NCBI RefSeq assembly: GCF_012940005.1
Contig: NZ_SPMX01000080.1
Coordinates: 54 to 39,513 of the forward strand
Length of the DNA stretch: 39,460 bases
DNA from: Candidatus Accumulibacter contiguus
Lineage (GTDB): Bacteria > Pseudomonadota > Gammaproteobacteria > Burkholderiales > Rhodocyclaceae
Direction of reading: 5' to 3'
Made by a program: the position numbers and the translations under genes. The notes beneath the pieces were generated by a model that did no database searches, was not told the origin of the DNA, and saw only the letters and a list, made by a program, of their open reading frames with translations. Shown here one piece after another: positions 21,113-34,858 of this stretch. The stretch's first letter is position 1. Every line of letters starts with the position of its first letter.

Positions 21113-22201
21113 ATGAAGACCTATCGCATTGCCACGGTTCCCGGCGACGGCATCGGCAAGGAAGTCGTTCCCGCCGGTCAGCAGGTTCTCGAAGCGCTGG
21201 CCGCTTCGAACAGCACTTTCCGCTTCGAGTTCGAGAACTTCGACTGGGGCGGTGACTACTTTCGCGAGCACGGCGTGATGATGCCGGACAATGGACTGGA
21301 TGCACTGCGCAACCAGGATGCCATTCTCTTCGGCTCTGCCGGCGACCCCGACATCCCCGACCACATCACGCTCTGGGGACTGCGTCTGAAAATCTGCCAG
21401 GGCTTCGACCAGTACGCCAACGTGCGCCCGACCCGCATCCTGCCCGGCATCGACGCCCCGCTCAAGCGCTGCAAGCCAGAGGATCTCGACTGGGTGATCG
21501 TGCGCGAGAACTCCGAAGGCGAATACTCCGGCGTCGGCGGTCGCGTGCATCAGGGCCACCCGATCGAGGCCGCCACCGATGTTTCGATGATGACCCGCGT
21601 CGGCGTCGAGCGCATCATGCGCTTCGCTTTCCGCCTGGCCGAATCGCGGCCACGCAAGCTGCTGACGGTGATCACCAAGTCCAACGCCCAGCGCCACGCC
21701 ATGGTGATGTGGGACGAGATCGCGACCGAGATCTCCCGCGAGTTCCCGGACGTCACCTGGGACAAGGAACTCGTCGATGCGGCTACGGCGCGCATGGTCA
21801 ACCGTCCAGCGTCGCTCGACACCCTCGTCGCCACCAACCTGCACGCCGACATCCTCAGCGACCTCGCAGCGGCCCTGGCCGGCAGCCTGGGCATCGCGCC
21901 GACCGGCAACATCGACCCCGAGCGCCGTTATCCGTCGATGTTCGAACCGATCCACGGTTCGGCTTTCGACATCATGGGCCTGGGCCTCGCCAACCCGGTG
22001 GGGACTTTCTGGTCGGCCGTGATGCTGCTCGAACACCTCGGTGAAGCCGAGGCTGCCAAACGCCTGATGCAGGCCGTCGAGACCGTCACCGCCGATCCGG
22101 CGCTACATACCCGCGACCTCGGCGGCAAGGCAACTACTGCCGAAGTCACCCGGGCCGTGTGCGATCACCTGGCCGTCAGCGCCGAGCGCCAGGCCGCCTG
22201 A
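21113..22201 (+). CDS. ttuC: tartrate dehydrogenase / D-malate dehydrogenase
   Basis: A 362-residue member of the isocitrate/isopropylmalate dehydrogenase family. The N-terminus [20 protein letters not shown] and the segments [33 protein letters not shown] and [17 protein letters not shown] are characteristic of tartrate/D-malate dehydrogenases (TtuC/DmlA). The NAD-binding part shows [19 protein letters not shown]. The product oxidises tartrate or D-malate to oxaloglycolate or pyruvate plus CO2. Two ATGs lie in tandem at 21110 and 21113; the second has the better distance (7 bp) from AGGAG. It heads an operon with a dicarboxylate carrier and glycerate 2-kinase, which matches the tartrate-to-glycerate route. 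Confidence 0.93.
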
Positions 22202-22211
22202 CCGTCGTTCC

Positions 22212-22242
22212 AGCCCGGCGCGACCGCCTGACGCGCCGGGCT
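22212..22242 (+). terminator. GC-rich hairpin after ttuC
   Basis: AGCCCGGCGCG and CGCGCCGGGCT form a perfect 11-bp stem with a 9-nt loop 10 bp after the ttuC stop. Only TTGTCGTC follows, so termination may be partial and allow some read-through into the downstream genes. Confidence 0.6.
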
Positions 22243-22332
22243 TGTCGTCAAGGCGTCACCCATTCGGCTTCAACACAGCCATGCCAGAGCTGTGGGGCCA
22301 CTTATCGCCTCGGAAGAGGAAGGAGAGACATC

Positions 22333-23339
22333 ATGATTCGCCGCTTTTTCGGAAAACTCTATGTCCAGGTCTTGATCGGCGTGACTGCCGGCATCATTCT
22401 GGGCGTTGTCGCCCCGAACATCGGAACCGACCTGAGGCCGCTTGGTGACGTCTTCATCAAGCTGATCAAGATGGTGTTCGCACCGATCATCTTTGCCACC
22501 GTGGTACTGGGCATTGCCCGCATGGAAAACATGAAGGAACTCGGCCGCGTCGGTGTCCGGGCGCTGATCTACTTCGAGGTGCTGTCGACCTTTGCGCTGG
22601 CGCTTGGCCTGCTGGTCGTCAACTCGGATCGATCGTCTCGCTCGGCAAGTTGATGGCCACGATGTACCTGACCTGCTTTCTGTTCGTTGTCCTCGTGCTG
22701 GGAGGCATCTCCCGACTCTCCGGCTTCAGCCTCTGGAAGTTTCTGAAGTACATCAAGGACGAAATCTTCACCGTCCTCGGTACCAGTTCGTCCGAGTCGG
22801 TCGTCCCGCAGCTTATGCGGAAACTGGAGCATGCCGGCATCTCGAAGCCGGTGGTCGGCCTGGTCGTGCCTTCAGGATTGACCTTCAACCCCGATGGACA
22901 GTGTATCTATTACACTATGGCGGCGATCTTTATCGCTCAGGCCACCAACACGCCACTGACTCTGACCGACCAACTGCTGGTGCTGGGCGTGCTGCTGCTG
23001 ACTTCGAAGGGTTCGGCAGGCGTGACCGGTTCGGGCTTCATCACTCTGGCGGCGACACTGGCTTCGATGGGCAAGATACCCGTCGCCGGCATGGTGCTGC
23101 TGCTCGGCGTCGATCGCTTCATGTCTGAAGCCCGTGCGATCACCAACACCATCGGTAACGCGGTCGGCACGGTGGCGATCGCCCGCTGGGTTGGCTCGGT
23201 GGACCGGGAGCGTCTCAACCAGGTGCTCGACGGCAAGAGCGATCCCGAAGACCTGCAGGCCTTGTACGAGGGTGACGAGGCAGCCAGCAGCCTGGAAGAA
23301 ACGAATTTGCCCACGCAGCGCCCGCAACTGGCTGCCTGA
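22333..23339 (+). pseudogene. dctA: dicarboxylate/amino acid:cation symporter (DctA family) with internal deletion
   Basis: The N-terminal frame from ATG 22333 (AGGAGA 6 bp upstream) reads [20 protein letters not shown] through FVKLIKM-type [21 protein letters not shown] to [11 protein letters not shown], which is the start of DctA. At about 22625 it shifts frame; a second frame from 22626 reads [18 protein letters not shown] and continues with typical DctA sequence ([44 protein letters not shown]) to TGA 23339. The segment between VVN and GSIVSLGK, about 115 residues including several helices, is missing. Total DctA length is about 430-450 residues. The gene is therefore broken by a deletion of roughly 350 bp plus a frame change, while flanking operon genes are intact. 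Confidence 0.9.
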
Positions 23340-25245: not shown

Positions 25246-26508
25246 TCAACGCTTGCCGCTGGGCTGTGTTGCCGAACCCAGCATGTCCCAGACCTGCTCA
25301 AGTGTCGCCCGCATGCCGGCGCTGTGATTCCTCGGATAGGCTGCAAAAATGGCAATCACCAGTCGGCGATCGAAATCGACGTAGAGGCTGTTGCCGTAGG
25401 GGCCGATAATAGCGATGCGGTTCGGTGCTCCACCAAGGTGCACAAAACCATAGCGGTACTCGCTTCCCTTTCTGAGGCCAGCAAGATCCGAAGAATTCGC
25501 TATGCGCAGCCCGGCGGAGGCTGTCAGCGTTTCGATGAACCAGTTCGGGACCTTGTTGCGTCGATTGCTGTTCCTGGCGTCGATCAGCAGTTGCCCCAAA
25601 CGAGCAAAATCGCGTAGCGAGAGCGCCAATCCAGCGGACAGTTCCGTTCCCTGCGAGTCGGTGAGCCAGAGGGCTGCGTTCTCGGGTCGGAGTTTTTCGA
25701 ACAGTTCCTGGCAAAAAGTCCGCGTGAGCGGAACCCGGTACGCTTCCGCAAGTGCCCAGACGAGCAGGTCGGTGTCAGGTCCGACTTCGCCGAGTTGCGG
25801 GTTCGGGGAAAAGTCCCTTTCCCAACGACCCGGTTGGTTGAGCCAAGCGCGAATCCCTCCGGCCGTGTTGCCGGAGTTCCATCCACCGGCCGCCAACCAG
25901 TCATTGACGTCGTGCGACGACCAATCGAAGCTGCTCTCTCCTTCGAGCAGGCGCCGAATCGACAGCTTTCGCAACCCCGTCTGCCCACTAAGGGCGGGTA
26001 TGTAGCGAATGATCGAGCGGTCCGGCGAGAGCTTGCCCTGGGCGACCGCCATGGCACCCATCAGGGAGAGCAGTGGTCGGGTTCCGCCAAGCAGCAGTCG
26101 CTGGTCCTGCGCTACCAGCCCATTCCAGTAGCGCTCGCTCGCCACCTTGCCGTCGCGCAGCACCAACAGCCCATCGGCATACAAGCGCGTGGCCAGCAGG
26201 AATCCGACATCGCGGAGCTGCTGATCGAGCGGGTCGCGGGCCTTGAGTTTGTCGAGCTCGAGCTGTCGAGGAGCAGGGCGGAACATCTGGGCTGTTCCTG
26301 TCGCCCTGATCTTCAGCGAAGGCGTGAAGCTGCCGAATGACTGCAAGCCGATGCGCAAATTTTCAGGTGCCAACCAGTTGTCCTGGTCGATCCACGGGCC
26401 AGGATCCTTGGCACTCCTGGGGACCGACTCGATGACACACTCCTCTGCCGCATGCAGTGGCCACGCCCAAGGTACCATCAACGCCAGCAATGTCAGCCAG
26501 TGCTTCAT
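25246..26508 (-). CDS. serine-hydrolase (beta-lactamase/class C) homologue, catalytic residues absent
   Basis: A 420-residue exported protein: the signal peptide MKHWLTLLALMVPWAWPLHA ends before AEECVIES. The fold matches class C beta-lactamase-related serine hydrolases (YADGLLVLRDGKVASERYW, GKLSPDRSIIRYIPAL, LSIRRLLEGESSFDW, LSLRDFARLGQLLID, YRYGFVHLGG). The nucleophile motif S-x-x-K should lie before LLSLMGAMAVAQGK, but the sequence there is GGTR (residues 141-144): serine is glycine and lysine is arginine. The tyrosine motif, normally before TDLL, reads GEVGPDTDLL. All three catalytic positions therefore appear lost. It is the last gene of the antiporter operon and its start overlaps the ligase stop by four bases. 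It may act as a periplasmic binding protein. Confidence 0.85.
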   Translation of the reverse strand: MKHWLTLLALMVPWAWPLHAAEECVIESVPRSAKDPGPWIDQDNWLAPENLRIGLQSFGSFTPSLKIRATGTAQMFRPAPRQLELDKLKARDPLDQQLRDVGFLLATRLYADGLLVLRDGKVASERYWNGLVAQDQRLLLGGTRPLLSLMGAMAVAQGKLSPDRSIIRYIPALSGQTGLRKLSIRRLLEGESSFDWSSHDVNDWLAAGGWNSGNTAGGIRAWLNQPGRWERDFSPNPQLGEVGPDTDLLVWALAEAYRVPLTRTFCQELFEKLRPENAALWLTDSQGTELSAGLALSLRDFARLGQLLIDARNSNRRNKVPNWFIETLTASAGLRIANSSDLAGLRKGSEYRYGFVHLGGAPNRIAIIGPYGNSLYVDFDRRLVIAIFAAYPRNHSAGMRATLEQVWDMLGSATQPSGKR

Positions 26509-27659
26509 CGTGGGCCCTCGGCAAGGTGCATGCTCCTTTTATTGCGAAAGCGCATTGTGGCCTCACGGACGACATCGTTCAGGTTTCTGTGGATGGCCTG
26601 ACGCCCGCGCAACCAGCTGGCGTCGGAGATCTCTCCGGCCAGGGAGGCGTCGAGCAGTTGCAGCCAGGCGGAACAGCCAAGTTCGTGGGCATCCTCGATC
26701 AACACGGCGAGCAGTTCACGGGCGATCTGCCGGAGAGGGACTTGCCGCAGGCCGATCGGATCCGAGATCTGCCCATCGAAACCATAGCGGCACGCCTGAA
26801 ACTTGTTATAGCGGGCAACATACAGATGCCGTTGGGTGTCAAGCGCGGGTCGAGTTCGCAAGAGATGGCGTACCAGGCTTTGCGCCAAGGCCGCCAGGGC
26901 TGCGGCGCGCTCGACCGTCAGTGGCGTATCGCAAACGCGGATTTCCACGGTGCCGAATTCGGGCTTGGGACGAATATCCCAGTAAAGGTCCTTGATGCTG
27001 CGAGCGATGCCACAGGCCTGCAGAAAGGAAAAATGTTCAATGAACTCTGCCCAGTCGCGCAAGGCCGGGCATTGCCCACTCAAGGGGAAGGCCGAGACGG
27101 CGTTCAGACGAGCGGACTGGAACAGTGTGTCTTCGCCATCGACGAACGGTGACGACGCCGACAGCGCAATGAAGATCGGCACATAGGGTCCCAGGGCCTG
27201 CGTCATCCAGATCGCTTCGTCACCGGATGTACAGCCGACGTGAATGTGCTGGCCAAAGACCGTGAACTGCTTGGCCAGGTAGCCATAACGGTGGTAGATC
27301 TCATCGAAGCGATCACCCGGACAAATCCGGCGCTCCGCCCAGCGATGGAAGGGGTGCGTGCCGCCGCCGCAGACGGCGATATGGTTGCGCGCGCACTGAC
27401 TGACGAGCGCTTGTCGGAGGCCGACCAGATCGGCAGCAATGCCATCGACGAATGTACGCGGCAGGGTGCTGACCTCGATCATGCTTTCGGTAATTTCAAG
27501 CTTGATTTCACCAAAGCGGCCATCGTAGTCCATGCTGCCGAGAAGATCCGTCGCTCCACGCGTCAAATCAAAATCGCGCACTGAAACCAGCTGCAACTCA
27601 AGCTCGACCCCCAGGGTCAGTGGCTGGCTCTGTTTGAATTCGGCGATTGGCTGGCTCAT
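26505..27659 (-). CDS. ybdK: YbdK-type carboxylate-amine ligase (GCS2 family)
   Basis: A 384-residue member of the glutamate-cysteine ligase 2 (GCS2) family. The N-terminal LTLGVELELQLV carries the family G-V-E-x-E metal-binding glutamates; further landmarks are EITESMIEVST, CGGGTHPFHRW, FGQHIHVGC and FGTVEIRVCDTPLT. YbdK enzymes ligate glutamate to an amine through the gamma-carboxyl group; E. coli YbdK has weak glutamate-cysteine ligase activity, and the natural substrate here is unknown. The start overlaps the antiporter stop by four bases and its stop overlaps the serine-hydrolase start by four. In this operon it stands opposite a class I glutaminase-type gamma-glutamyl hydrolase, so making and breaking of gamma-glutamyl bonds are encoded together. 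Confidence 0.9.
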   Translation of the reverse strand: MSQPIAEFKQSQPLTLGVELELQLVSVRDFDLTRGATDLLGSMDYDGRFGEIKLEITESMIEVSTLPRTFVDGIAADLVGLRQALVSQCARNHIAVCGGGTHPFHRWAERRICPGDRFDEIYHRYGYLAKQFTVFGQHIHVGCTSGDEAIWMTQALGPYVPIFIALSASSPFVDGEDTLFQSARLNAVSAFPLSGQCPALRDWAEFIEHFSFLQACGIARSIKDLYWDIRPKPEFGTVEIRVCDTPLTVERAAALAALAQSLVRHLLRTRPALDTQRHLYVARYNKFQACRYGFDGQISDPIGLRQVPLRQIARELLAVLIEDAHELGCSAWLQLLDASLAGEISDASWLRGRQAIHRNLNDVVREATMRFRNKRSMHLAEGPR

Positions 27660-28930
27660 GCCACTCCTTCCTTGCTGTTGTCGGTCGCCGCGGTCTCTCC
27701 GGCACGCACCACGGCGAAACGGCAGAGGGCAGGGCCGGCGAGTTCCATGATGGCGGCCGCAAACAGCGGCAATGACAGCGACGAACGGCCGATTTCCGGG
27801 TAGAGTCCGGCGATTTCATAGGCCATGAAAACGGCAGTGGCCGACAGCGGCTGAATGCCGATGCCAACCAGCACCCGCCTGGCAACGCCCAGGTCACCGC
27901 CGGCCCATGCCAGGGCAGCCACCTTGGCCACCGCCCGAACGATCAACAGGCCAATCGCCTGCAGTCCGATCAGCCAGGTGAAGTCTTGCCAGGGTAGCGA
28001 GGCGCCGACGACGACGAAGAGGATGATCGCCAGCAACCAGTGTCCTTCCGGCAGGTTGGTATAGCTGAGCGTCCTTTCCTGATCGCTGAACGACAGGATT
28101 ACCCCCATCAGGAAGAGGGTCAGAAAAACCGGCACCGCCAACATGCGGGCGGTGCCAACGGCGAGCAAGGCCGTGGCCACGAGGATGAAGACCTGTGCCA
28201 GAGAGCGTTTTGGCAACAGTGCCGCGACCAGACGAGCGAGAAGCGCCATCAGCCAGGCGATCATCACGGAACCGACCACCACCCACAGCGGATGGGCCAC
28301 GGCATTCAGCCAGTCGTCGCTGTATTGCGCATGTACCACGCCGACGACGACGGCGAACACGACGAATGACGCAGCCGCGCTCAGCGCCGTGTGCAGGATG
28401 ATCCGTTCGCTGACCTGCCCTTGCGCGTTCGATTCCTCGACGGTCAGCAGGACAACCGCCGGCGCCGAGGCCATGGTAACAGCCGCCGCCGCGGCCGCCC
28501 ATGCCGCCATCAGACCAACCACCCCCCAGGCGAAGAGAAAAATGGCCGTGAAGGACAGGGTGATCTCGCCAAGCGTGGCTCTCAGCAAGTCGCGGTTTTC
28601 ACCGAGCCAACGCAGATCGAGGCGTCGCCCGATCTCGAGCATCAGGAGTCCGAGCGCTGCATCGGCCATTGGCCGTATCTGGGCCAGTGCCTCAATGCTG
28701 ATCCAGCCGAGCAAGGAGGGGCCGAACAATGTTCCTGCCAGGACGTAGCCGATGACTTTCGGCCAGCCCAGTTTGGCGCGCAACCACTCGCCGACCAGCA
28801 AACCGACGACCAGCAGCATGCTGAACAAGGCCAGAGAATCGAGTTCATCGGGGAAGGGTGGCAGGAAGAAGAGGCGCTCCTGCAAGCCTTCCCAGGCGGT
28901 GCGTGCCGACGACAGAATCTCGTTCAGCAT
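27656..28930 (-). CDS. CPA2-type cation:proton antiporter, second of two, no RCK domain
   Basis: A 424-residue inner-membrane protein of the Na+/H+ exchanger (KefB/CPA2) family with about 12 helices. Landmarks are LGWPKVIGYVLAGTLFGPSLLG near the N-terminus, LGLLMLEIGRRLDLRWL (the conserved hydrophobic-acid helix), TMASAPAVVLLTVEESNAQG and FLMGVILSFSDQERTL. The frame ends at RFAVVRAGETAATDNSKEGVA. KefB and KefC carry a C-terminal TrkA-N/RCK ligand-gating domain of about 200 residues; here it is absent. The start at 28930 (MLNEILSSARTAWEG) lies 14 bp after the hydrolase stop; a longer frame to 29059 would run far into that gene. Only about 25% resemblance is visible to the first antiporter of the operon, by eye. 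Confidence 0.87.
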   Translation of the reverse strand: MLNEILSSARTAWEGLQERLFFLPPFPDELDSLALFSMLLVVGLLVGEWLRAKLGWPKVIGYVLAGTLFGPSLLGWISIEALAQIRPMADAALGLLMLEIGRRLDLRWLGENRDLLRATLGEITLSFTAIFLFAWGVVGLMAAWAAAAAAVTMASAPAVVLLTVEESNAQGQVSERIILHTALSAAASFVVFAVVVGVVHAQYSDDWLNAVAHPLWVVVGSVMIAWLMALLARLVAALLPKRSLAQVFILVATALLAVGTARMLAVPVFLTLFLMGVILSFSDQERTLSYTNLPEGHWLLAIILFVVVGASLPWQDFTWLIGLQAIGLLIVRAVAKVAALAWAGGDLGVARRVLVGIGIQPLSATAVFMAYEIAGLYPEIGRSSLSLPLFAAAIMELAGPALCRFAVVRAGETAATDNSKEGVA

Positions 28931-28943
28931 TGGTTCGTCCCGC

Positions 28944-29726
28944 TCACCAGAATCGGCCGCGCGCGGCAGCGAGAAACTCGTCGAGGATTGGCGTGCAGTC
29001 CAACAGTACCTCGCTGCCGGGGGGATGGAACTCCGGGTGCCACTGCAGGCCCAGCACATACGGCCTGCCTTGCAGGCGAATGGCTTCGATCAGGCCGTCC
29101 GCGGTGCTGCGCGCTTCGACCTGCAGGTCCCGACCCAATGCTCGGATCGCCTGATGATGTATCGAAACCACCCGCCCAGCGGTCTTGCCCGGGTAGAGCT
29201 TCGCCAAGCCGGACTTTGTGGCCCACTCGACCGCGTGACTGTGCTGGTCGTAATCGCTATGGACGTGCTCGCCCGCCGCTTCGATCTGTGTCGCGATGTC
29301 CTGATAGAGTGTCCCGCCAAGCGCCACGTTGATCAGTTGAGCTCCGCGACAGATGCCGAGGACCGCCTTGCCGGCTTCCATGAATTCGTGCAGAAGTTCC
29401 ATTTCGTAGGCGTCGCGCACCCGGTCGCCAGCCCAGTCGGGGTGCAACGGCTCCTCCCCGTAGCTTTGTGGGCTGAGGTCAGCTCCACCCTGGAGAATCA
29501 GGCCATCGAGATACTCCGGGTAGTCCGAGAGCCGGATGCTGCTGCGATGGACCATGGCGTCGCCACTGACCGCGGGGATCATGAACACCATCACTTCGCG
29601 GGACATCACCCAGTGCGCCACCGATTGCTCGAGGTACTGTAGGGACTTCGACTGCAAACCCGTGGCGCCGACCACTGGGTGGTAGATGCGTGCGGAGAGA
29701 CCGATACGTAAAGGGCGTCTGCTCAT
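28944..29726 (-). CDS. class I glutamine amidotransferase-like gamma-glutamyl hydrolase (peptidase C26)
   Basis: A 260-residue cytoplasmic enzyme of the PuuD type, which hydrolyses gamma-glutamyl amide bonds such as gamma-Glu-GABA. The nucleophile is Cys126 in VLGICRGAQLINVALGG and the other two triad members are His230 and Glu232 in GLQWHPEF; GLILQGGADLSP forms the oxyanion/N-terminal motif. Length matches the family. The start overlaps the upstream antiporter stop by four bases. Within the operon it is the natural opponent of the YbdK ligase: one forms and the other cleaves gamma-glutamyl bonds. The actual substrate is not known. Confidence 0.9.
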   Translation of the reverse strand: MSRRPLRIGLSARIYHPVVGATGLQSKSLQYLEQSVAHWVMSREVMVFMIPAVSGDAMVHRSSIRLSDYPEYLDGLILQGGADLSPQSYGEEPLHPDWAGDRVRDAYEMELLHEFMEAGKAVLGICRGAQLINVALGGTLYQDIATQIEAAGEHVHSDYDQHSHAVEWATKSGLAKLYPGKTAGRVVSIHHQAIRALGRDLQVEARSTADGLIEAIRLQGRPYVLGLQWHPEFHPPGSEVLLDCTPILDEFLAAARGRFW

Positions 29727-30952
29727 GATTTGTCTCCCCAGGAACCTTTGTTGGAGGCAGGCTTCTCTGCTGCCGGGTCGTCCGATTGCAGATAGGTTGC
29801 TTCGCCGAAGCCCTTGATCGCCGTCTGCGTGGCCAAGGGGCCAAACAACTGCATGAGAAGAATCGTCGCCAGCAAGGCGCCCGTCAGTCGTGGCTCAAGC
29901 CCGGAGTAGAGCGTCTGCATGTTGGCAAGAAGAACCAAAGCAATGCTTGACATCGGCTGTAAACCAATTGACAGGTAGATTGAAGATGCGGTTCCCAAGC
30001 AGAGGCGATTGCGATTCAAGAGAACGCCTGCGAGTTGCCCGGCGAAGCGCGCGATGATCACCAGGACAGCGTCCGGCCAGCTCTCCACGACAACTCCAAT
30101 GTCGAGCGCGGCACCGGCCAGAACGAACGTGGCGACGAGAAAAATCCGGGCGTCACTGGCAATCCGAATGGCAACGACCTGCTTGTTTCGATCCAGGGCG
30201 CGCGTCAGATAGCCGAAGAGCAACATGGGCAGCAATGCGGAAATGTCGAGGTGGATCGCAGTTCCAACGCCCAGGACGATGGTTCCCAGAATCAACAGGT
30301 GCTGGTGTTCCGAACGCCGTCCCAGGAGTTGAGCGCCGGTCAGGACGAGCGCAGTGCAGGCACCACCGAGCACCACGGCCCCACCGACTTCCTGCGTCGC
30401 TGTCCAGGCGCCGGCGAGGCTGTAAATCGCCCCATCCTCGACCAGAAGCGGCATTGACCAGGTAGAGACAACCAAGGCAACGCATCCATCGATTGCCACC
30501 ATGGTGAACAGCAAGCCGGTTTTTTCTCCTCTGGCGCCCACGTCGCTGCAGGTGGCAATCGTGATCGCTGGCGAAGTGGCCAGACAAAGGGCTGTCGCGA
30601 AAACTGCGGAACTGGCGGAGAAGTCCATTGCCAGGAGCGCCAGAACTACGGTCGCTCCGGTGGTCAGGGAGATCAGTATCCCCGCGCTCAGTCGGTTCCA
30701 TCCTTCACTGACTGCCACCAGCGGAACTTGATAGCCCAATTCGAACAGAATCAGGCCCAATGCCAGATCGATGAAAAGCTGGTTGGACTCGATGTGATAA
30801 GGCGCTATCCAACCCAGTCCGCTCTGGCCGACCAGCAATCCAAAAACGACGTAGCCGGTGGTTCGTGGTAAAGCCAGCGCACGACGCGAAAACTCGCCCG
30901 CACCCAGGCCGCCAAGAAGCGCCACGCCGAAAATCTGGATCGAATTGAACAT
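29723..30952 (-). CDS. CPA2-type cation:proton antiporter, first of two, no RCK domain
   Basis: A 409-residue inner-membrane protein with about 12 helices of the Na+/H+ exchanger type. Landmarks are LPRTTGYVVFGLLVGQSGLGW, DLALGLILFELGYQVPL, LCLATSPAITIATCSDVGARG and SIYLSIGLQPMSSIALVLL. After the last helix only a short polar tail follows (QSDDPAAEKPASNKGSWGDK), so the RCK/TrkA-N gating domain typical of Kef proteins is missing. The start at 30952 (MFNSIQIFGVALLGGLGAG) is chosen because the 63 upstream codons of the open frame show no family pattern and reach the MarR promoter. It is the first gene of a five-gene unit with 4-bp overlaps. Confidence 0.85.
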   Translation of the reverse strand: MFNSIQIFGVALLGGLGAGEFSRRALALPRTTGYVVFGLLVGQSGLGWIAPYHIESNQLFIDLALGLILFELGYQVPLVAVSEGWNRLSAGILISLTTGATVVLALLAMDFSASSAVFATALCLATSPAITIATCSDVGARGEKTGLLFTMVAIDGCVALVVSTWSMPLLVEDGAIYSLAGAWTATQEVGGAVVLGGACTALVLTGAQLLGRRSEHQHLLILGTIVLGVGTAIHLDISALLPMLLFGYLTRALDRNKQVVAIRIASDARIFLVATFVLAGAALDIGVVVESWPDAVLVIIARFAGQLAGVLLNRNRLCLGTASSIYLSIGLQPMSSIALVLLANMQTLYSGLEPRLTGALLATILLMQLFGPLATQTAIKGFGEATYLQSDDPAAEKPASNKGSWGDKS

Positions 30953-31039
30953 CGAGTCGCGAACCCTTACCGGTGCTCTGAGTGGCACAAAAACGTGACC
31001 AGCGGCCTTGGCACAATGCTGTCGCCAAAGGTGCAAGTA

Positions 31040-31080
31040 CAAAAAATCTATCGATATTACATTGATGGTGAATATAATAG
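31040..31080. promoter_or_regulatory. AT-rich divergent promoter/operator region
   Basis: The gap between the antiporter operon (-) and marR (+) contains a sudden AT-rich stretch. A -10 TATAAT (31073-31078) lies 16 bp after TCGATA (31051-31056), a four-of-six -35 match, reading toward marR. The imperfect inverted half sites CTATCGATATTA and TGAATATAATAG overlap them and would suit a MarR dimer. Confidence 0.45.
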
Positions 31081-31115
31081 TCTTTCTATCTCGATTAGAG
31101 CAATGCCTCACGCCG

Positions 31116-31619
31116 ATGACACATCCTTTGACGGCCGCCACACCGCCGGTCCACTTGGCGGTTCTACAACAGTTCCGTGTGATCTACGGCACGATGCGCC
31201 AGTATTTCCGTGAGGTGGAAGATCGTTGCGGACTCCCTGGTTCACAGATGTGGATTCTGCAGGAAGTGCATCGCTGCCCGGGGCTTGGCGTGACAGATCT
31301 CGCTGCACGCTTGGGTATACACCAGTCTACCTGTAGTCAACTTGTTGAAAAACTGGTCGCCCGAAGATGCCTCATCAAGACGCGCAAGCAGGAAGATCAG
31401 CGCCGGGTCGGTCTCCAGCTCGCACCAGACGGAGTGAAGGCCATCGCGGCGCTACCAGGGTCCGCAGAAGGCGTCCTTCCTGAAGCGCTTGCCGCCATGC
31501 CGGAAGTCGCCCTACAAACATTGTATATCAATCTATTTGAGTTGATACGGCATCTGCCCGGACGAGACGATGCCTTCGCCAGCATACCGCTGGCAGACAT
31601 GCTGCGGGATCCGGAATGA
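31116..31619 (+). CDS. MarR-family transcriptional regulator
   Basis: A 167-residue DNA-binding protein with the MarR winged helix: GLPGSQMWILQEVHRCPGLG, the recognition helices DLAARLGIHQSTCSQLVEKL, and the wing RKQEDQRRVGLQLAPDG with the conserved D-x-R-R. The start at 31116 (MTHPLTAATPPVHLAV) is preferred; a longer frame begins inside the promoter region. The ribosome-binding site is weak. It is divergent to the antiporter operon with about 160 bp between starts, which is the classic layout for a local regulator, and its stop overlaps the OmpA-like gene by four bases. The ligand is unknown; it may be the small molecule handled by the neighbouring operon. Confidence 0.88.
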   Translation: MTHPLTAATPPVHLAVLQQFRVIYGTMRQYFREVEDRCGLPGSQMWILQEVHRCPGLGVTDLAARLGIHQSTCSQLVEKLVARRCLIKTRKQEDQRRVGLQLAPDGVKAIAALPGSAEGVLPEALAAMPEVALQTLYINLFELIRHLPGRDDAFASIPLADMLRDPE

Positions 31620-32152
31620 GGCCTGCTCAGATCATGTCCAGGCTCTCCAGCCTGATACAGCTGTTCTATGGCGTAATGCTCATCGGATGCAGTACCTTGG
31701 CCATTTCACCTTCAGAGCCGATGCCGCAACAGTCGCTTGATTCTTCTTCAGCCCCAGATACCCCATTGGATGCGCCCTCAACCAAGGAAACGGATTCTGT
31801 AGCGCTGGAGGAAGCTAACAGCATCTACTTCGCCAAGGGCGCAACCCGTATCGATACGGCGGGGCAGGACAAACTGCGGCATCATGCAGTGCGCTTGAAG
31901 GCGAATCCGGCGCAGGTGGTGACCTTGGCCGGTTACACGGACGACCTGGGCAGTGACTCATATAATCTGGCGATAGCGGAGCGGCGTATCGAAGCCGTCG
32001 CCAAGCTCCTTCGCACCTACGGCGTTCCCAAGAAACAGATTCATCCGCTGCGTCGCTATAGCGTCGGTCGAGGGGAAGCAATGCCGGCCTGTAGAACAAC
32101 CGAATGCCGCCAGATCATGCGCCGGGTGGAAGTGATCTATGGTATTCGGTAA
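31616..32152 (+). CDS. OmpA-domain lipoprotein
   Basis: A 178-residue predicted lipoprotein. The lipobox is VMLIGC with Cys25 after a short signal. A Ser/Pro-rich linker (about residues 30-60) leads to an OmpA C-terminal domain: SIYFAKGATRIDTAGQDKL, VVTLAGYTDDLGSDSYNLAIAERR with the aspartate and arginine that bind diaminopimelate in peptidoglycan, and PLRRYSVGRGE. Two cysteines in MPACRTTECRQ may form a disulfide. The start overlaps the MarR stop (ATGA), so regulator and lipoprotein are translated together. Its link to the divergent antiporter operon is by position only. Confidence 0.88.
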   Translation: MRPAQIMSRLSSLIQLFYGVMLIGCSTLAISPSEPMPQQSLDSSSAPDTPLDAPSTKETDSVALEEANSIYFAKGATRIDTAGQDKLRHHAVRLKANPAQVVTLAGYTDDLGSDSYNLAIAERRIEAVAKLLRTYGVPKKQIHPLRRYSVGRGEAMPACRTTECRQIMRRVEVIYGIR

Positions 32153-32522: not shown

Positions 32523-33142
32523 GTAAGCGTTCAGCGCACCCACCCCTGGGTGCGCACAATTACACTGGTTTTTTGAGAGGTAACAGCTCGTCGATGCGGC
32601 TGTTTGGCCAGTCGGGGAGTTTCGCCAAGGTGTCGGTCAGCCAGGCCATGGGCTCGATACCGTTCGCACGCGCGGTTTCGAGCAGCGATTGAATCGCCGC
32701 GGCGCGTTGGCCGGCCGCCTCGGAACCAGCGAACAGCCAATTCTTCTTGCCGATGGCGATCGGGCGAATGGCATTCTCGACGGGGTTGTTGTCGATCGGA
32801 TAGAAACCGTTCGTGGCAGAACGGGCAAAGGCCGGCCAGCGCCGCAGACTGTAGTCGATCGCCTTGGCCAGTGCGCCGCCGTCGGCCACCGATCGGCGAG
32901 TGTTCTGGGGCCATAGGTGCAGGGCTTCGAGCAACAGCTGACTGGTTTCCTTTCGTCGTCGGGCCCGTTCCTCGACCGTCTTCCCTTTCGCAGCGTCCTC
33001 GATGGCATACAACTCGCCGATACGGCGCAGGGCCTCGGCCGCGACCGGGCTCCCATTCGCCTGATGGAGATCGAAGAACTTCCGCCGGGCATGGGCCATA
33101 CAGGCGAGTTCGATCACCTCGCCGCGAAACAGGGCTTCGATC
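32523..33142 (-). mobile_element. IS66-family remnant, left end
   Basis: The left boundary is marked by GTAAGCGTTCAGCGCACC at 32523, the typical IS66 terminal start GTAAGCG. Inside lies the C-terminal part of the tnpC transposase. The other half of the element is missing because a different transposable element begins at 33139. Confidence 0.75.
32560..33142 (-). pseudogene. IS66 transposase (TnpC), C-terminal half
   Basis: The minus-strand frame encodes the catalytic core and C-terminus of an IS66 DDE transposase: ELACMAHARRKFFDLHQANG, then LRRWPAFARSATNGFYPIDNNPVENAIRPIAIGKKNWLF, with the last acidic residue in NPVENA, and ends with PNSRIDELLPLKKPV. About the first half of the roughly 500-residue protein is gone. 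The similarity ends close to IEALF, at GATC 33139-33142, exactly where the terminal repeat of the next element starts, so this copy is dead. Confidence 0.85.
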
Positions 33143-33154
33143 ATCATTCCGGCC
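33139..33154. repeat. left terminal inverted repeat
   Basis: GATCATCATTCCGGCC, perfect inverse of 35017-35032. It lies 25 bp after the transposase stop in transcription direction. Confidence 0.8.
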
Positions 33155-33178
33155 GCTCCCGCTACGCCGCCACCTGCA

Positions 33179-34858
33179 TCAGATAGGGCGGCTTGGGTGG
33201 TCGAGGTCGTCGCGCGCCGGTCGTGGGGGTAGCGGCATGCGCTGGAGCACCTGCGCGAACAGCGTTTCGTGTGCACGGCCAAAGAAGCGCTCGGCGGCGG
33301 TTGTGCCGTCGGCGCGACGGATGTGGTAGTTGTGCACGGCGGTGAGCGCCGCGAGCTTGCGGTCGCTCAGGCGATGGCGGCCCTGGTGATGCAGGGCCAG
33401 TTGTCCGTTACGGCCCTCCACCCCGGAACTGCTGCGCTGGAAGCGATCGGCGCATTCGCCGGCCACCTGTTCCAGGCGCGCGATCTCGGTGGACGGTAAG
33501 GCCTGGATCGGATGCGCGCCGTGACGCAGCGGTTCGAGCAACTGGCGGCTCAGCGCGCGTAGTCGGTGACGCGGCTCGGCGAGGGTGCTGCGCTCGGCGA
33601 CGCGCTCCAGATACAGAGCGGGAATCAGTTCTTCGACGAGGGCGCGCTCCAGCTCGGGGGGCAGCGCGAGGGCCTCGACCTGCACCTGCAGGGTGGCGAA
33701 GAAAAAGGTGAGGGTGGCCAGCAGTTGGGTAGTCAGACGTTGCGCTTTGGCCAGGCGCTCACGGGCGCGCGTCGGCAGATCAGCGGCCTGGGCGATACGC
33801 CCGAGCCGCGCCCAGACGTCGTTGAAGCGCTGCGCGACGGGTTCGACGGGTTGTGCCTGTCCACACTCCAGGTCATACGGGTGATACCCGATGCCCAGCT
33901 CCCGCACCAGTTCGCGGGCTTCGCTCTGACGCGCCTGCGCCTGGGTGTGCGCGACTTCGGCCTGCACCACCTCGCTCACGGCGGCCTGGAGGCGGGCGGC
34001 GAACGCGGGTGGGCGACCGCGGGGACGAGGCGACTGGTTCTCGTACGCCTGCTGGGCCGCCCGCTCGACCGCCCAAGCCTGCTGAGCGGCCACCACCGTC
34101 GCGGCGGCCTGCCGGACCTGGCGGGCCAGGTGTAGGCTGGTGGCCTTCGATACCTCGTGCTGACCATGGAAGAGGTCCGGCGAATGATGCGCATCCAGGT
34201 CCACCTCGACCTGCCGATGCAACGCCGTGGCCTCGTCGCTGGTGCCTTGGATCACGGCAACATTCAACCCGACCAGGGCCGCCTGGAGCGCCTGCGTCCA
34301 GGTCGCCGCCTTGCGATCCGCCGCGTACTGCTCCAGAAGAAGAAAGCCCGACACCGGCTCCAGCGCCACCAAACCCATCTGCGGATGGAAGGTCTCATCC
34401 TCACATACCGTGAGATCTCGGTGCGGCATGCCCCGCGCCAGCGCCGCGCGCTGCTCATGTGCGACGGCGACCAGCGCCTCCTCCAGGGCCGCATTGAGGC
34501 CCTGGTGGGTGCCGTAGCTGGCACCGACGAATGCCGACAGCCCGCTCAACTCCAGAAATTGGCACACCACCCAAACTCCGGCACCACCCTGCAGGGTGAT
34601 GCTGAAGTGCGCCGCCAACACCAGTGGATGCAGCCACCGCACGCCCTCAGCGGTCTCCACCCACGCCGCCAAGGCCGCCGGGGCTGCGCCGACCGCCACC
34701 GGCTTGCACCATTCCTGCAAGGTACTGCGGGCCAGGCCGAGATCGGCGGCTACCTGCCGTTGCGGCTGTCCCGCCGCCAAGCGCGCGTTGACCGTCTCAA
34801 GCTGCTCCGCCCGCTCCAGGCGCGAGCGGCGCCTCACGACCCACCAACCATCGACCAC
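33179..34858 (-). CDS. DDE-type transposase of an uncommon family (DUF6399-like)
   Basis: A 559-residue protein. The N-terminus has a helix-turn-helix (about residues 18-50: LETVNARLAAGQPQRQVAADLGLARSTLQEW). Acidic catalytic candidates are Asp154 in TVCEDETFHPQ, Asp208 in IQGTSDEATAL and Glu481 in SSSGVEGRNGQL, with the spacing of an RNase H-fold transposase; a long helical insert (about 240-440) lies between the second and third. The end AVHNYHIRRADGTTAAERFFG is typical of proteins often annotated as DUF6399. It fills the element with 16-bp inverted repeats, and reading frame and catalytic residues look intact, so it may still be active. The family name is from memory. Confidence 0.75.
   Translation of the reverse strand: MVDGWWVVRRRSRLERAEQLETVNARLAAGQPQRQVAADLGLARSTLQEWCKPVAVGAAPAALAAWVETAEGVRWLHPLVLAAHFSITLQGGAGVWVVCQFLELSGLSAFVGASYGTHQGLNAALEEALVAVAHEQRAALARGMPHRDLTVCEDETFHPQMGLVALEPVSGFLLLEQYAADRKAATWTQALQAALVGLNVAVIQGTSDEATALHRQVEVDLDAHHSPDLFHGQHEVSKATSLHLARQVRQAAATVVAAQQAWAVERAAQQAYENQSPRPRGRPPAFAARLQAAVSEVVQAEVAHTQAQARQSEARELVRELGIGYHPYDLECGQAQPVEPVAQRFNDVWARLGRIAQAADLPTRARERLAKAQRLTTQLLATLTFFFATLQVQVEALALPPELERALVEELIPALYLERVAERSTLAEPRHRLRALSRQLLEPLRHGAHPIQALPSTEIARLEQVAGECADRFQRSSSGVEGRNGQLALHHQGRHRLSDRKLAALTAVHNYHIRRADGTTAAERFFGRAHETLFAQVLQRMPLPPRPARDDLDHPSRPI

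Follow-up and report, generated by a model that had tools for sequence, protein, structure and literature searches.

In KefC, a K+/H+ antiporter under glutathione control, the AMP and glutathione sites sit in the RCK domains and the ion-binding aspartate of transmembrane helix 5 (TM5) is D156 (PMC11150392, in the part available). Position 7 of the CPA motif, also in TM5, is aspartate in 94% of cation/proton antiporters (CPAs) according to the available part of PMC6181914. Gamma-glutamyl ligases that work with other enzymes are also on record: the GlnA4-type pathway is proposed to use ethanolamine via gamma-glutamylation, with hydrolysis assigned to a member of the formylglutamate amidohydrolase family (PMC6529630, in part), while in AtdA1/AtdA2 and NpaA1/NpaA2 a gamma-glutamyl ligase is found beside a glutamine amidotransferase (GAT)-like enzyme said to reverse its reaction (PMC11335346, in part). 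E. coli YbdK slowly ligates glutamate to cysteine, according to a citation in the accessible text of PMC9563957. The DNA analysed here (the window) is a stretch of 39,460 nt from contig NZ_SPMX01000080.1 of Candidatus Accumulibacter contiguus, and its region 25246–32152 carries a YbdK-type ligase gene within a row of five minus-strand genes. Directly upstream of the ligase gene lies one for an NhaA-fold membrane protein that has lost the TM5 aspartate, and the pairing of the two genes recurs across related genomes. We read the pair tentatively, at a probability of about 0.4, as a ligase-carrier unit. To our knowledge, YbdK has no settled physiological role beyond slow glutamate-cysteine ligation, and a strict genomic partner is a direct handle on that role.

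The open reading frames (ORFs) are as an earlier note on this DNA had stated them, and profile matches confirmed the families, so that its five minus-strand genes and divergent MarR-OmpA pair are real. Three of the four minus-strand junctions are 4-base overlaps and the remaining gap measures 13 bases by the start chosen here (14 in the earlier note). The five genes are as follows.

25246–26508, minus strand: predicted exported pseudo-hydrolase of the beta-lactamase/6-aminohexanoate-dimer-hydrolase family (PF00144, E 1.3e-7), with SxxK replaced by GGTR
26505–27659, minus strand: YbdK-type carboxylate-amine (gamma-glutamyl) ligase (NF010040, 469.1 bits, cut-off 425; 1r8g, E 3e-90; 14-row alignment)
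27656–28930, minus strand: CPA2b, NhaA-fold membrane protein without RCK domain, TM5 acidic pair reading S-A (PF00999, E 5e-26; AlphaFold and Foldseek)
28944–29726, minus strand: C26, gamma-glutamyl hydrolase/GATase-like (PF07722, E 4e-51, 174 bits; Cys126, His230 and Glu232 kept)
29723–30952, minus strand: CPA2a, second aspartate-less member of the same family, TM5 reading D-G (PF00999, E 1.5e-20)

The pairing of YbdK with an antiporter-like gene was followed through several sets of genomes. A YbdK match, in some cases a weak fragment, occurs in 25 of 41 genomes (the source genome and 40 relatives), and a PF00999-type gene flanks YbdK in all 19 regions read from this set, as it does in five of five regions fetched later. 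A scan of a genome-contig collection with the YbdK alignment kept only the best 80 of at least 565 relatives, so this set is biased towards near kin. In all 80 the antiporter gene is directly upstream of YbdK on the same strand, with C26 present at 49 loci (25 on the same strand, 24 on the opposite one) and the pseudo-hydrolase at 16. In an even sample of 299 genomes from the order, searched for YbdK, the antiporter family and C26 at E 1e-30, there were 93 YbdK matches in 87 genomes and 106 antiporter matches in 93. For 81 of the 93 YbdK matches an antiporter match lay within 1.5 kb, in every case on the upstream side and in the same orientation, with a median of 31 bases between the two profile matches; the counts of 80/80 and 81/93 come from sets that are not independent. 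Both families were found together in 76 genomes, YbdK alone in 11, the antiporter alone in 17 and neither in 195 (Fisher P 9e-42, inflated by kinship). Unpaired antiporter matches numbered 24 of 106, some of them being second copies in the same cluster. Long open frames had suggested a fusion of antiporter and YbdK, an idea that was dropped, as none was found in 104 loci.

The grouping that the earlier note saw at this locus is not chance, given the pair and the co-occurrence of C26 with YbdK, but in the surveys made here its five-gene form was seen in Accumulibacter and some near kin. Among eleven close loci (L023–L033), all five genes are present in L023 (where the hydrolase is cut by the contig end), L025, L027, L028 and L030. 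C26 is missing from L026 and truncated to 82 residues in L029; L031 has no CPA2a, L032 and L033 each have a fragment of it, and L024 ends within CPA2b. The wider conserved unit is one of two or three genes, and its core is an antiporter-like gene followed by YbdK on one strand. One Burkholderiales metagenome-assembled genome carries two such pairs in tandem (L084, 6794–11541), and relatives of YbdK occur in 17 plasmid records. The neighbours of stand-alone antiporters and of unlinked YbdK or C26 genes (40 loci) held no partner common to most.

Both membrane proteins of the window belong to the CPA superfamily by PF00999 (91.9 and 73.9 bits, cut-off 26.2). A sequence search with CPA2a and CPA2b against the PDB gave no antiporter match; with the AlphaFold model of CPA2b (pLDDT 91), Foldseek found NHA2 (E 6e-10), NapA and KefC (8bxg, E 1.5e-7). 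The alignment covered 92 family members at YbdK loci, namely the two of the window and 90 from the best 80 loci, where second copies were counted and one short ORF was set aside. None of the 92 has aspartate at the column of KefC D156, and an acidic residue anywhere within KefC columns 149–162 occurs in one alone, the window's own CPA2a, where it lies one column earlier. This protein reads D-G in TM5, and six other second copies on the tree read N-G. The aspartate is kept in KefC and in all five of the other PF00999 proteins of the source genome (two of which are near-copies of each other). Relatives from outside the order were taken from a phylum sample of 199 genomes, 24 of them with an antiporter-family match at E 1e-40; 13 of the 24 are not members of the order, 12 of these were fetched, and no YbdK or C26 gene was found in the 12 stretches. 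Eleven such relatives served as the outgroup, of which ten read D-D or N-D and one (L311) is without the aspartate, the outgroup having AIDD where the aspartate-less family has AINN, AINC or ALSA. Judged by sequence, CPA2a and CPA2b lack the TM5 aspartate expected of a functional cation/proton antiporter, and the whole aspartate-less group probably does not use the usual aspartate mechanism.

On a tree of 78 rows, made by a quick method from an alignment stripped of the TM5 aspartate columns, the aspartate changes once. The outgroup forms one clade (support 100), as does the stand-alone set (90), and the YbdK-linked set is one clade with a support of only 57 when KefC-type rows are left out. 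With these rows included, the stand-alone clade falls among the linked rows. The two trees thus differ on the order of events, and either the pairing or the loss of the aspartate may have come first.

A protein whose ion-binding residue is gone while its fold is kept, and whose gene is tightly paired with YbdK, might have ceased to transport and now serve as an anchor or sensor in the membrane, regulating YbdK or reporting the membrane's state. The core residues are conserved, as expected for a working carrier (lysine at the column of KefC K307 in 77 of 92 members), and members exist that stand alone, so we consider a pure anchor or sensor unlikely.

The earlier note had proposed that a gamma-glutamyl metabolite gates K+/H+ antiport here, as glutathione does in KefB/KefC, which implied C-terminal RCK domains in the antiporters. 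The co-conservation of ligase, hydrolase and antiporter-like gene agrees with such gating, as does the proximity of C26 to larger genes at three loci described below (L284, L286 and L287), the L284 member matching PF00999 with an acidic pair in TM5 by eye. However, neither CPA2b (424 aa) nor CPA2a (409 aa) has an RCK/TrkA domain, PF00999 being the sole profile match in each, so the part of KefC that holds the AMP and glutathione sites is missing together with the TM5 aspartate needed for cation/proton exchange. No accessory protein of the KefF/KefG type (flavodoxin/quinone-reductase family) was found among the seven proteins scanned. Since the RCK domain and the aspartate are both absent, gating of the KefB/KefC kind was rejected as the explanation, and we hold it to be very unlikely.

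The slow glutamate-cysteine ligation by E. coli YbdK could also make the enzyme a spare source of gamma-glutamylcysteine for glutathione, with its neighbours incidental. The source genome has a dedicated gshA (617 bits) and an adjacent gshB (384.5 bits) on another contig, so a need for glutathione probably does not explain YbdK; the strict pairing with a single antiporter family likewise speaks against incidental neighbours, and this explanation is highly improbable.

C26, the third member of the wider unit, has its catalytic residues C126, H230 and E232 invariant in ten aligned rows. It scores below the equivalog cut-off of PuuD (NF008471, 88.9 against 266 bits), and the five operon genes include no oxidase or dehydrogenase of Puu-type gamma-glutamyl amine catabolism. 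There were 73 C26 matches in 63 of the 299 genomes of the order sample. A close subfamily was delimited at E 1e-80, a cut placed after a gap in the list, leaving 47 matches in 46 genomes and dropping 26 weaker ones. YbdK is found in 42 of these 46 genomes, with C26 alone in 4, YbdK alone in 45 and neither in 208 (Fisher P 3e-22, again raised by shared descent). The two genes are often unlinked, close C26 lying within 10 kb of YbdK in just 20 of the 47 matches. In one genome without a YbdK match (L294, 1917–8117), a C26 of the same subfamily stands in a row with a permease, a glutamine-synthetase-type ligase, an iron alcohol dehydrogenase and an aldehyde dehydrogenase. By analogy, this row resembles a pathway that gamma-glutamylates an amino alcohol, for instance ethanolamine; the close C26 subfamily therefore occurs together with gamma-glutamyl ligases of both types.

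Unlinked C26 subfamily genes were also seen close to larger genes that fall into a single blast cluster; the stretches are L284 (3275–6811), L286 (3300–7010) and L287 (6096–9990). The cluster member checked, the 585 aa protein of L284, gives the PF00999 match and the TM5 acidic pair mentioned above, and the C26 of L284 has a long N-terminal extension.

A ligase, a hydrolase and a transporter-like protein together, the last with family kinship to ion antiporters, could also be expected if YbdK made a compatible solute of the gamma-glutamyl type, serving osmotic or ionic balance, which C26 would degrade on downshift and the membrane protein would release. No osmotic-stress gene was recognised among the recurrent neighbours of the 80 loci (clusters judged by eye) and the regulator is a MarR protein, which makes a compatible solute quite unlikely.

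The ligase-carrier unit is the reading we favour. YbdK would attach glutamate, through its gamma-carboxyl group, to a small amine or an amino compound, as the chemistry of the enzyme family suggests, and the NhaA-fold protein encoded just upstream would move an organic solute rather than exchange cations for protons. Such a cargo is the most likely one for a carrier that is kin to cation/proton antiporters yet is without their ion-binding aspartate. There are two options for the direction: a charged gamma-glutamyl conjugate may be exported, or an amine may be imported and then trapped by glutamylation. C26 would remove the tag in the cytoplasm, so that glutamate is recovered, and the MarR protein would set the level of expression. 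In Accumulibacter and its kin, the module can also comprise another carrier and an exported pseudo-hydrolase, with MarR probably acting through a promoter site.

Several observations weigh against this proposal. The genomes are related by descent, which makes the Fisher P values look stronger than they are, and 12 of the 93 YbdK matches of the order sample are unpaired. In a class sample of 232 genomes, an antiporter gene lies within up to 1.5 kb at three of 16 YbdK-type loci and at none of the other 13; some of the 16 are cut by contig ends, and two of the three paired genomes also belong to the order sample. The 8 kb read around E. coli ybdK contain neither an antiporter gene nor a C26 gene. 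Loss of the aspartate is not tied to YbdK alone, since 20 stand-alone members from 20 genomes (17 without a YbdK match) read N-N, none of them with aspartate, and L307, from outside the order, also reads N-N. The register relative to the distant KefC differed by one column from one alignment to another, although it is supported by the outgroup relatives, which have aspartate where the aspartate-less family has none. With the weaker matches kept, the share of C26 genomes that have YbdK is 46 of 63. C26 is also dispensable, as it is deleted or cut down between the two antiporter genes in Accumulibacter loci L026, L029, L042 and L043 (L026 and L043 being one and the same contig). A PIN-like proline crossover, considered as a sign of organic-anion transport (cf. 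PMC9477730, in part), was dropped because the prolines of TM4 and TM11 are also present in the aspartate-bearing outgroup.

The broader form of the ligase-carrier proposal is put forward with somewhat more reserve: an NhaA-fold subfamily may have dropped its cation-binding aspartate once and become the dedicated carrier of gamma-glutamyl conjugates from a co-transcribed YbdK, giving a synthesise-and-transport unit that is common in Burkholderiales-type bacteria and hidden under an antiporter label.

The protein at the distal end of the row had been called a dead serine hydrolase, and the lack of its nucleophile motif extends well beyond the window. Its N-terminus is signal-peptide-like by eye, and phmmer aligns it with the 6-aminohexanoate-dimer hydrolase 2zm2 (E 4e-14), the SxxK nucleophile motif of which falls on GGTR. 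None of the 25 sequences inspected (the window protein, ten others of a genus-wide set and 14 wider homologs) has SxxK; L044 alone keeps a serine at the nucleophile column (SATR), without the lysine. T143-R144 is invariant in 11 rows. The structure model (pLDDT 45) was unusable. Conservation without the SxxK motif suggests that a non-catalytic role, perhaps in binding, has been retained; the earlier note had suggested that the protein might bind a ligand in the periplasm.

Upstream of CPA2a, the divergent side of the locus has the following features.

31061–31078, plus strand: candidate MarR operator between the divergent genes, sharing bases with the -10 box TATAAT of the promoter (cross-species alignment and upstream-region count)
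31116–31619, plus strand: MarR-family regulator, ATG read at 31116 (PF12802, E 2e-11)
31616–32152, plus strand: OmpA-domain lipoprotein-like protein (PF00691, E 5e-13; LIGC lipobox read from the sequence)

The MarR and OmpA ORFs overlap by 4 bases. The stretch 31040–31080, suggested earlier as a place for MarR binding, does hold a conserved near-palindrome at the -10 box: alignment of the CPA2a-MarR intergenic region shows ATTG-N5-CAAT fused to a -10 box ATAAT, and the window copy, ATTGATGGTGAAT at 31061–31073, is one mismatch away from it. The scan covered 20 of 23 MarR-matching loci, the window among them; the three others, L104, L107 and L111, match MarR less strongly and lie in a different setting. 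Two of the 20 upstream regions are the same contig. The motif is exact in 10 of the 20 and within one mismatch in 17, against an exact-match background of 0.004 per region, the counted regions including the aligned sequences from which the motif was derived; L056, L057 and L060 are without the site. An inverted-repeat search at the MarR promoter found nothing, and a promoter scan gave one site against 1.7 expected and so is by itself no evidence. ATTG-N5-CAAT is a candidate MarR operator, and its place at the promoter fits autoregulation.

Beyond the MarR-OmpA pair, transposase-like ORFs (IS66-type by eye) occupy 32531–34858 of the window. On the other side, at 22159–23339, a DctA-like dicarboxylate symporter is seemingly split over two frames between tartrate-dehydrogenase-like and glycerate-kinase-like genes (names by eye).

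Each family of the locus is already known. No description of the YbdK-antiporter pair was recognised among the literature matches listed, although a 2009 review of amidoligase neighbourhoods may mention it, and the same matches gave no recognised account of the strict pairing or of the one-time loss of the ion-binding residue in the antiporter family paired with YbdK. For automatic annotation the family is a warning, being a widespread PF00999-matching group that is unlikely to use the aspartate mechanism, and it lends itself to studying how a single fold comes to carry a different cargo.

Compared with described systems, E. coli YbdK belongs to the same enzyme family as the ligase of the window (the 1r8g match) and differs in its surroundings, as given above. 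GCS2-sized carboxylate-amine ligases are similar in that the gene of a GAT-like thiol peptidase adjoins the ligase gene; they belong to another ligase family, and the word 'antiporter' does not occur in the main text of PMC2588565, in the part available. AtdA1/AtdA2 and NpaA1/NpaA2 differ in feeding an aromatic dioxygenase and in having a glutamine-synthetase-like ligase (same part of PMC11335346). The GlnA4-type pathway and the L294 row resemble the window in having genes for a hydrolase and a transporter alongside that of a gamma-glutamyl ligase; the C26 of L294 is of the same subfamily, and the Streptomyces GlnA4 cluster also lists a glutamine amidotransferase gene (PMC6529630, in part). 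Both differ from the window by a glutamine-synthetase-type ligase, dehydrogenases and another kind of permease. Unlike KefC/KefB, the window proteins come without RCK domain, TM5 aspartate or a KefF/KefG-like protein and have a ligase as their partner, yet they share with KefC/KefB the NhaA-type fold, the kinship to CPA2 and the involvement of a gamma-glutamyl compound.

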